From NCBI GenBank assembly GCA_009929485.1, contig SAAJ01000023.1, forward strand, positions 1 through 49,001: a DNA stretch of 49,001 nucleotides. Direction: 5' to 3'. How positions within the stretch are numbered: the first letter of the stretch is position 1; each line of letters starts with the position of its first letter. Below, piece by piece: positions 34,352 to 39,520 of this stretch. The notes under the pieces are model-generated. The model searched no databases. It was not told the origin of the DNA and worked only from the letters and a program-made list of their open reading frames with translations. The stretch is from Negativicutes bacterium (lineage in GTDB: Bacteria > Bacillota > Negativicutes > Anaeromusales > Anaeromusaceae). The position numbers were made by a program, and so were the translations under genes.

Positions 34352-34817
34352 ACTTCCCATTATCTTTGTGCCTCAATTAGAGCCCAAGGGGCAGCGGACG
34401 TTAGAAGGAATGCTTAAATTTGTGCTGACCGTTCTTTTGATCCTGATTTTGGCGGTGCTTACCCTGGCTGTCTGGGTAGGATCCGGCTTCTATGTACAAG
34501 AACAGATTCTGGCGGACGCTTATATCAAGAAATCCTGGGGTATGCTGTTTACTGTGGGCTGGGTAGCCTTGGCGGCGTTTTTGATTATGTTGATTTGGCA
34601 GCAGTATAATCTGCGCGTCTTTGGCAAACGTACGCGACGGCAATTTCCGCCGCCTGTGGGCCCCGCGGAAGTGGCCAAAATGCTGAAAATTTCGGAAGAC
34701 ACTGTGGTTCATGCACAAGAGCTGCGTATTGGCGTCTTTTATGTAGAAGATGGCAAACGGATTCTCTGCGATGATGAAAAAATGTGTATGTCCTTGGAAA
34801 CGGAGAAGAAGGAGTAA
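34332..34817 (+). CDS. pgaD: PgaD-like poly-GlcNAc synthase accessory subunit
   Basis: 161 residues. Two membrane helices (about 27-52 and 70-92), then a soluble tail with RVFGKRTRRQFPPPV and VAKMLKISEDTV as in PgaD, which supports PgaC and takes part in c-di-GMP control in Escherichia coli. It overlaps the pgaC remnant by 20 bases (start ATG 34332 or 34335). It is intact although its partner is broken, so it is probably a survivor rather than functional in polymer synthesis. Confidence 0.8.
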   Translation: MMRNKNELPIIFVPQLEPKGQRTLEGMLKFVLTVLLILILAVLTLAVWVGSGFYVQEQILADAYIKKSWGMLFTVGWVALAAFLIMLIWQQYNLRVFGKRTRRQFPPPVGPAEVAKMLKISEDTVVHAQELRIGVFYVEDGKRILCDDEKMCMSLETEKKE

Positions 34818-37113: not shown

Positions 37114-37147
37114 AAAACAAAAAAACGGCTATCATTTCGATAGCCGT
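37114..37147 (-). terminator. Terminator downstream of the (former) tRNA-Ser
   Basis: On the minus strand ACGGCTATC-GAAAT-GATAGCCGT is followed by TTTTTTTGTTTTTGG, placed 12 bases past the tRNA 3' end. Confidence 0.85.
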
Positions 37148-37158
37148 GATTGCTTGCG

Positions 37159-37220
37159 TGGCGGAGTGGGTGGGATTTGAACCCACGCATGGGTTACCCC
37201 GTCTAACGATTTAGCAAATC
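37159..37220 (-). other. 3' part of tRNA-Ser(GCT): probable attachment site
   Basis: Read on the minus strand: from GATTTGCTAAATCG (anticodon loop with GCT), through the serine-type long variable arm GACGGGGTAACCCATG, the T-arm GTGGGTTCAAATCCCAC, to the acceptor CACTCCG and CCA at 37159. Nothing resembling the 5' half (a GGAGTGG acceptor and D-arm) lies to the right. The match stops at the anticodon stem, as at a crossover point of tyrosine integrases that target tRNA 3' ends. Confidence 0.8.
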
Positions 37221-37429
37221 TATATATGGATTTGGCTGCTGTTGGCAGCGATGAGAGAAACCTAAGAACCATGCGGTTCTGGACGGTTTCTCTTTGTTTT
37301 TGTTAAGTTCTGTTTGGGGCCTTTGGGAAACAAACAAACCCCATTTTTTTCCCCAGTTTCCCCAATTTGCGTTGAGCTCGAAGAAAATTGCTTTGTAACA
37401 ATTGATTCGACGCAGTTACGAAAATGGCC

Positions 37430-37564
37430 TGCTATCAAAATGCCATCAAATAAAAAATGTCGTGGATGGATAGCGGAAAAGCTAGTGAAATCAAGGGGGA
37501 TGGCAGTTGAGTGAAACTTCAAGAAGGTGAAATAAGGGCGTGCTATCAAATGGCCGTCAAATAA
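37430..37564 (+). repeat. Pair of 24-bp direct repeats near the attachment site
   Basis: TGCTATCAAAATGCC-ATCAAATAA (37430-37453) and TGCTATCAAATGGCC-GTCAAATAA (37541-37564), 111 bases apart, differ at three to four positions. They may be arm-type integrase or accessory sites. The rest of 37221-37593 is without a recognisable gene. Confidence 0.55.
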
Positions 37565-37593: not shown

Positions 37594-38052
37594 ATGAGCT
37601 TTTACATTTCTATATCCATGATCGAGGCAAGCCTCTGGGGCTTCAACCGAGATGAATATTACCACAAAGGGAAGAACAGCGGCCCAGGATACCGCTATTG
37701 GAACAAAGAACATACAAAGCTGGAATGGGTGCCGCAGGAAGACTTTGAAAAGGAGTACTCCGTCAAGCTAGAAAGCAATCAAACCATTACGGACAGCGAT
37801 GTAGCCAATTTCATTGCTGCTACACAATGCTGGAAAGTCAATGCAAAGACGCTGGTTGTCGAAGCGGAACTGATTAACGGCACCTTACTTTCTGAGACAT
37901 ATTCTTGTCCGAGCTCGAGCGACTTGGATGAGGAAGAAGCAAAAAGGATTTGCATGCGGCAAATCTATGAGAAGATAAAATTTCTGCTGTCCTTTTTGCT
38001 GCAATGTGCAAAGCTAGAACAGCGATTTAGGGGAGAGAACGAGAAGGAGTGA
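37594..38052 (+). CDS. Phage Gp49-like protein with extra N-terminal region
   Basis: 152 residues. The C-terminal two thirds (ITDSDVANFIAATQCWKV, VEAELINGTLLSETYSC, DEEEAKRICMRQIYEKI) resembles phage Gp49/Gp66-type proteins, small proteins of unknown function found in phage and prophage. The N-terminal 50 residues (WGFNRDEYYHKGKNSGPGYR) are Tyr- and Trp-rich and not familiar. AAGGAGG precedes ATG 37594. It is the first gene inside the putative island and ends 7 bases before the NYN gene. Confidence 0.6.
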   Translation: MSFYISISMIEASLWGFNRDEYYHKGKNSGPGYRYWNKEHTKLEWVPQEDFEKEYSVKLESNQTITDSDVANFIAATQCWKVNAKTLVVEAELINGTLLSETYSCPSSSDLDEEEAKRICMRQIYEKIKFLLSFLLQCAKLEQRFRGENEKE

Positions 38053-38059
38053 CATTAAT

Positions 38060-38722
38060 ATGGAATGCCAACCCCAAAGCAAGCTAGCGCTTTTCATTGA
38101 CGCAGAGAACACCAAGCCGGATTTTGAGCAGTTGCTTTCTTTTTGCAGCTCCTATGGCGAAATATGCATAGCCCGCATATACGGCCATCGGGATTTGCTC
38201 AGGCATCCCCGTTGGCAGAGAGAATGTAGTCAGTTCCAGCTTGAGCTCGTTTTTGCCGAGAAAGGACGAAAAAACAGCGCCGACATGCTTTTGGCAGTAG
38301 ACGCTGTGGAAGTTCTGTATCTTAAGCCTGAAATCACCACGTTCATCATTGCCTCCATGGACTATGATTTTTTGCCGCTTGTCCATCGGCTGCGTAAGCA
38401 TCAAAAGACAACCATAGGCATTGCGACGCGCTATCCGCCGGCATTGTTGCGGGGCGCATTTCATGAATACCATACCTTGCTGCGCCCGGAGTGGGACGTT
38501 TTTGAATTTTGCGCTCAGCAATTCTACTTGACTTATTTGGATTGCCAAGTGCATAAGGGCTGGGCCTTGGCTGATGAAGTGCTGTTTGCTTTGTCGGAGC
38601 CAATGCCTTTTTTACAGAGGTTGCACCAAATCGGCTTTGATAGCTTTTTCTCATTCCTGAAGCACTGCCGCTTCTTTTCCATCTGGAAGGGCAGAGTACC
38701 GTATAAAAAAGGACGGTTTTAA
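38060..38722 (+). CDS. NYN (PIN-like) ribonuclease domain protein
   Basis: 220 residues in the conventional frame. The NYN fold is clear: strand plus D14 in LALFIDAEN, D75 and D81 in SADMLLAVDAVEVL, and D101/D103 in IASMDYDFLPLVHRL, the acidic metal cluster of PIN-like nucleases (LabA/DUF88 group). A helical region (about 170-215, FLQRLHQIGFDSFFSFLKH) follows, perhaps LOTUS-like. The frame stops at 38720-38722 right after an A6 run, while the -1 frame continues openly for 75 residues (see next entry). AAGGAG is about 10 bases upstream. A phage defence or RNA-processing role is only a guess. Confidence 0.8.
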   Translation: MECQPQSKLALFIDAENTKPDFEQLLSFCSSYGEICIARIYGHRDLLRHPRWQRECSQFQLELVFAEKGRKNSADMLLAVDAVEVLYLKPEITTFIIASMDYDFLPLVHRLRKHQKTTIGIATRYPPALLRGAFHEYHTLLRPEWDVFEFCAQQFYLTYLDCQVHKGWALADEVLFALSEPMPFLQRLHQIGFDSFFSFLKHCRFFSIWKGRVPYKKGRF

Positions 38723-38987
38723 CATGCTGGATACGTAACCCTCGCGAGCTCGCCGAAGAAGCATTGGCTGAAAGCGATAAGAGTTGGCTGCGAAGATATG
38801 CACAGGCCTTCTTTGGACAAAGGCCATGCTCTGTCGGGTTTGGCGTTCCAACCTTGCTTCGCCATTTTGCGAATTCAGGGGAGGCTGTTTTGGGAAAGAT
38901 TTCTCTTGTGGAAATTAGGGGAGAGCTTAACTCTTAAAATTTGAATTACCAAATGAATTACCAAAGAACTAACAATGAATTAACAAA
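38704..38987 (+). repeat. Long direct repeat, copy 1 (about 282 bp)
   Basis: It covers the NYN 3' end, its -1 extension and the AT-rich tail AATGAATTACCAAAGAACTA. It is roughly 85% identical by eye to 39238-39520, offset about 535 bases with small indels. Confidence 0.85.
38710..38937 (+). CDS. Out-of-frame C-terminal extension of the NYN protein
   Basis: From AGG 38710 the -1 frame reads RTVLTCWIRNPRELAEEALA, then SDKSWLRRYAQAFFGQ, VGFGVPTLLRHFANSG and ISLVEIRGELNS, ending at TAA 38935-38937. It has a protein-like composition but no start codon, so it needs a frameshift at A6 (38705-38710) or it is a broken continuation of the upstream gene. A diverged second copy of the same segment lies at about 39245-39327, where it is cut by TGA. 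Together with the NYN frame it would give a protein of about 292 residues. Confidence 0.55.
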   Translation, partial: RTVLTCWIRNPRELAEEALAESDKSWLRRYAQAFFGQRPCSVGFGVPTLLRHFANSGEAVLGKISLVEIRGELNS

Positions 38988-39023: not shown

Positions 39024-39236
39024 GTGGGGCTTGCTCCGAGAAAGGAAAGTAACTCTGAAGATAACGGCAGCAACTCCAAAGATAACGGTAGTAACTCCGA
39101 AGATAACGGCAGTAACTCCGAAGATAACGAAGGCAGCTCCGAAGATAACGGGGAAATATCTGCGGCTGTGCCTAAGGCTTCAGATGCTGCAGCAGAAGCT
39201 GGTGGCTGGTTTAGCATCAGGGCACCGAATTCATAA
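39024..39236 (+). CDS. Possible low-complexity SNSEDNG-repeat ORF
   Basis: 70 residues: MGLAPRKES, about four SNSEDNG-like units, then a tail rich in Ala (ISAAVPKASDAAAEAGGWF). It has no clear ribosome-binding site. It could be a linker within the ancestral duplicated gene rather than a gene of its own, as it has no recognised domain. Confidence 0.25.
   Translation: MGLAPRKESNSEDNGSNSKDNGSNSEDNGSNSEDNEGSSEDNGEISAAVPKASDAAAEAGGWFSIRAPNS
39053..39158 (+). repeat. Tandem array of five 21-bp units
   Basis: The consensus unit is AACTCCGAAGATAACGGCAG plus T. The third and fourth units are nearly identical and the outer ones diverged. 21 bases keep frame: one reading gives S-N-S-E-D-N-G repeats (frame 39024-39236), another T-P-K-I-T-A-V. 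It lies exactly between the two long direct repeats. Confidence 0.85.
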
Positions 39237-39237
39237 T

Positions 39238-39520
39238 GAAAAAAGAACGGTCATACCATGCTGGCTACGAAATCCCCGCGAGCTCACCGAAGAGCCATTG
39301 GCTGAAAGCGATAAGCGTTGGCTGTGAAAATATGCGCAGGCCTTCTTTGCGCAAAGACCTTGCTCTGTCGGATTCGGCGTTCCGACGTTGCTGCGCCATT
39401 TCACGAATTCAGGGGGGATGTTTTGGAAAAGATTTCTCTTGGGGGAATTAGGGGAGAGCTTGACTCTTGAAATTTGAATTACCAAATGAATTACCAAAGA
39501 ACTAACAATGAATTAACAAA
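39238..39520 (+). repeat. Long direct repeat, copy 2 (degenerate)
   Basis: This copy repeats the extension sequence (RTVIPCWLRNPRELTEEPLA, SDKRWL, then TGA at 39325) and later KYAQAFFAQRPCSVGFGV past the stop, with a further phase change near 39414. It ends in the same AT-rich tail. Confidence 0.85.

Follow-up and report, generated by a model that had tools for sequence, protein, structure and literature searches.

The window, i.e. the whole stretch of 49,001 nucleotides analysed here, very probably holds a one-base frameshift in a member of a small NYN-nuclease gene family, located on a genomic island at tRNA-Ser(GCT) that is strain-specific and decaying. The ancestral gene would have encoded some 275-290 residues in one frame, with an NYN nuclease domain and a conserved helical region followed by a rapidly evolving tail of about 65 residues. 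Loss of one nucleotide within 38684-38730 would have put the tail out of frame, with translation then stopping at 38722 after 220 residues, and the segment at 39239-39520 would be what is left of another member of the family (Table 1). The one-base deficit probably reflects a mutation in the living cell, perhaps a recent one.

The NYN frame ends with a TAA codon at 38720-38722, and its 220-residue product matches the Pfam NYN model (PF01936) over residues 8-139 (E = 2.9e-23), scoring 83.4 bits against a curated cut-off of 24.2. The A6 run (38705-38710, in codon phase AAA AAA) sits in the overlap of both frames, between the TAA at 38704-38706, which closes the -1 frame just 5', and the TAA of the NYN frame. 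From 38707 onwards the -1 frame stays open for 76 codons and contains no ATG or GTG start in its first part. The initial annotation had given the end of the NYN frame, the position of the A6 run and the open -1 frame lacking a start codon correctly, and it had called the -1 frame protein-like, which is borne out by a match to residues 216-270 of an intact paralogue on contig C59 of the same genome (65% identity, E = 1.1e-18). The second tail copy and the intact single-frame relatives had escaped it. Independent translation of the tail was discounted, there being no start codon near the beginning of the tail; an ATG at 38724 lies in another frame, which meets a stop four codons later.

Table 1. 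Features of the NYN locus and its surroundings (window positions)
Feature	Position	Strand	Description	Evidence
3' part of tRNA-Ser(GCT)	37160..37219	-	Putative attachment-site remnant, left end of the proposed island	Homology
Phage_gp49_66-like protein	37594..38052	+	152 aa	Pfam PF13876, E = 2.1e-7
NYN nuclease body	38060..38722	+	220-aa conventional product, C-terminal tail out of frame	Pfam NYN
Stretch one nucleotide short compared with all three relatives	38684..38730	+	Contains the A6 run	DNA alignment, gap-placement scan
Displaced C-terminal tail	38707..38937	+	-1 frame	Homology to intact paralogue up to about 38871
3' flank	38940..38987	+	48 bp, GAATTACCAAA-like units	100% identical repeat at 39473-39520
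Second tail copy and 3' flank	39239..39520	+	No NYN body, in-frame TGA	

The main evidence comes from three close family members, the only relatives with a tail in the genomes searched: two paralogues on contigs C59 and C100 of the same genome, a draft of 134 contigs, and a homologue from a genome of the same genus (G001). All three carry body and tail in one uninterrupted frame of 275-281 amino acids from ATG, and their amino-acid identity to the window NYN protein is 90% (C59), 86% (G001) and 76% (C100). A search of the window with the C59 protein recovers it in pieces: residues 1-219 in the NYN frame, residues 216-270 in the -1 frame and, as a third piece, a segment at 39241-39408. Since the relatives encode the whole protein in one frame, ordinary gene decay is indicated rather than programmed slippage. 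Both readings had been offered by the initial annotation, together with a homologue comparison as the means of telling them apart; this comparison supports the recent indel, while programmed slippage finds no support, for want of recurrence and because of the wrong phase.

Between C59 and G001, amino-acid identity is 88% in the body vs 40% in the tail, and by this measure the tails diverge quickly even where both genes are intact. Differences between the window tail and C59 are distributed 5, 3 and 10 over the codon positions of the -1 frame, an excess at third positions, and comparison of the window tail with the second copy gives 8, 2 and 15 over the positions of the tail frame (one-sided p = 0.006). 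Such a third-position excess implies that both tails were kept as protein while much of their divergence accumulated, and their selection as protein before breaking fits relics of two separate genes. The tail, present in frame in the intact relatives, is a genuine segment of protein. Changes on the window's own lineage in the NYN body fall 7, 5 and 23 on the three codon positions, pointing to purifying selection, and amino-acid changes number 8 in the window lineage vs 7 in the C59 lineage. With its body under constraint the gene is not fully dead, and thus either the break happened recently or the protein of 220 residues remains useful; this shortened product keeps its nuclease domain intact and may have retained function.

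Across the junction the DNA of C59, C100 and G001 aligns with equal length, whereas the window is one nucleotide shorter. When the gap was placed at every position against C59 and G001, the fit formed a broad plateau of ~20 bases, and the best placement against C59 lay a few bases 3' of the A6 run. Because of this plateau, the deficit cannot be assigned to the A6 run, and the earlier placement of the missing base at that run has to be widened to a stretch of about 20 bases.

Two products of 220 and about 292 residues, made by programmed -1 frameshifting or by slippage during transcription at the A6 run, would agree with the position of the run in the overlap of the two frames and with the coding constraint on the tail, but this is highly improbable given that the relatives carry the tail in frame and without the run. 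The initial annotation had named recurrence of the run and of the -1 phase across strains as the mark of programmed slippage, and neither is conserved in any of the three relatives. The dnaX site of E. coli, A_AAA_AAG, requires the zero-frame codons AAA AAG (PMC5009743). The letters AAAAAAG are present at 38705-38711, but the zero frame reads UAU AAA AAA GGA; the motif is therefore one base out of phase, no slippery heptamer X_XXY_YYZ stands in the zero frame at the A6 run, and a -1 slip would have the P-site tRNA re-pair on UAA. No downstream stimulatory structure is indicated either, RNA folding of the 96 nt from the A6 run onward being no better than in shuffled sequences (z = +0.50, for folds free of pseudoknots). 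As to transcriptional slippage, for which an A/T run of about nine or more was taken as the benchmark, the run here comprises six; among 108 bacterial genomes surveyed, selection against A/T runs was evident from nine nucleotides in many, and shorter runs may slip in some bacterial species (PMC1088944). Wrong phase, a short run and no RNA structure beyond chance together leave programmed slippage unsupported, which removes one candidate for programmed frameshifting, and the sequence may be compatible with very low-level slippage at the A6 run.

A base miscalled in or near the A6 run of the draft assembly, with an intact gene in the cell, is distinctly unlikely. A homopolymer is involved and the purifying selection on the NYN body looks normal, but ~28 kb aligned to the same-species genome G060 show no lasting frame-changing homopolymer indel in the main genes, with 73 runs of six or more bases in window 1-37000, which argues against a miscalled base; one offsetting +1/-1 pair was seen at 34719-34722. 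Homopolymer errors would also leave the stops in the second tail copy and in the integrase on contig C6 (see below) unexplained. Another, rather unlikely possibility is a recombinant, in which the NYN body was joined at the A-run to the tail of another copy and the junction caused the shift, a variant of the frameshift reading distinguished solely by the mode of base loss. The homology of the window tail with the copy at 39239 starts at the A6 run and the 12-base form AAAAAAGRACGG is common to both, but body and tail both clearly resemble the C59 paralogue, and hence no chimera is needed. It is barely conceivable that the tail copies at 38705-38987 and at 39239-39520 serve as C-terminal cassettes that can be exchanged, with recombination or A-run slippage toggling between short and long NYN forms; if true, this exchange would be a phase-variation-like device.

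The frameshift reading is in keeping with further broken genes nearby. The second tail copy and its flank share 88% DNA identity with the first over 282 bp, and the segment at 39241-39408 matches residues 216-271 of the C59 paralogue with one TGA. Missing an NYN body and interrupted by this in-frame stop, the copy appears to be the relic of another NYN gene. The in-frame TGA in this tail and a TAA in the C6 integrase indicate that other genes here are broken too.

Several repeats were also observed in this region. The 48-bp flank repeat is better conserved than the adjoining tail coding sequence, and its second copy (39473-39520) ends beside the stop of the AlbA_2 gene. Between the tail copies (39048-39152) lie imperfect tandem repeats of 21 bp (AGTAACTCCGAAGATAACGGC), which were not found elsewhere in the four genomes of the family, and a pair of 31-bp direct repeats, 84% identical, is located upstream of the gp49-like gene (37423-37453 and 37534-37564).

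Homology to G060, G001 and G002 breaks off at 37218, inside the 3' part of tRNA-Ser(GCT), and positions 37114-37218 are 98% identical to a stretch of G060 that holds the 3' part of the intact tRNA gene. In the genome under study, an intact tRNA-Ser(GCT) is found on contig C6 beside a tyrosine integrase (L057 319-1498), whose reading frame is interrupted by a TAA after about 280 residues. The simplest reading would be a genomic island integrated at tRNA-Ser, with its left end in the window. C6 and the window would belong to one island, a connection made by inference only, as the contigs do not overlap. The island is absent from G060, where no close NYN relative was found but only a distant one (31% identity), and it contains the gp49-like and NYN genes, a Schlafen AlbA_2 protein, a YgjP-like metallopeptidase and a type I restriction-modification system. 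The gp49-like gene is paired upstream of the NYN gene also on C59 and in G001, and the NYN-plus-tail family with this partner may be a candidate small defence-associated family.

The genomic neighbourhoods of the relatives offer some further observations. On C59, the intact NYN paralogue adjoins a large ATPase, an AAA ATPase and a methyltransferase-like gene (L020 5128-12752), a neighbourhood that resembles a defence cluster as judged by eye only. Upstream of it, a serine recombinase (L020 1994-3522) seems to be broken up into two ORFs that overlap in different frames, which may be a further frameshift. In G001 and on C100 (L021/L022), the NYN homologues share an adjacent convergent gene, with 81% DNA identity over 2.4 kb, that by eye resembles a Y-family DNA polymerase (UmuC/ImpB-like).

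Wider searches added little to the identity of the family. The acidic residues D14, D75, D101 and D103 are invariant in an alignment of four family members, and by PIN/NYN folds we take them to be the putative catalytic residues. No informative name came from PADLOC, NCBIfam or PHROGs, a sequence search of the PDB gave no real match, and the AlphaFold2 model of the 220-residue protein alone was unusable (mean pLDDT 41). Close relatives were found neither in GTDB 220 contigs nor in IMG/VR. Plasmids and phages yielded only distant NYN-domain matches, none of which covers 80% of the query and none of which, among the matches listed, covers the tail. In 398 genomes of the phylum, tail plus C-terminal region were recovered from the own genome only, apart from a marginal match that spans 38 positions and contains two stops. 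A Pfam search of the C-terminal region of the NYN protein found no match; by eye only, this region suggests an OST-HTH-like arrangement of the kind reported for bacterial LK-nucleases (PMC2848206).

Comparison with paralogues of the same genome can thus reveal as decay a tail that is visible only in another frame. Compared with known systems, the protein resembles NYN / LK-nuclease proteins (former DUF88) in its Pfam match and conserved acidic residues, and differs from them in a C-terminal region that matches no Pfam model. With dnaX-type -1 frameshifting it shares the letters of the site, but neither codon phase, nor stimulatory structure, nor conservation. The closest likeness is to a frameshift mutation in a decaying genomic island: a single-base deficit, intact paralogues, broken neighbours and a tRNA integration site are all present, and no difference emerged among the features tested. 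The case is most probably one of ordinary gene decay, and the general picture is unchanged.
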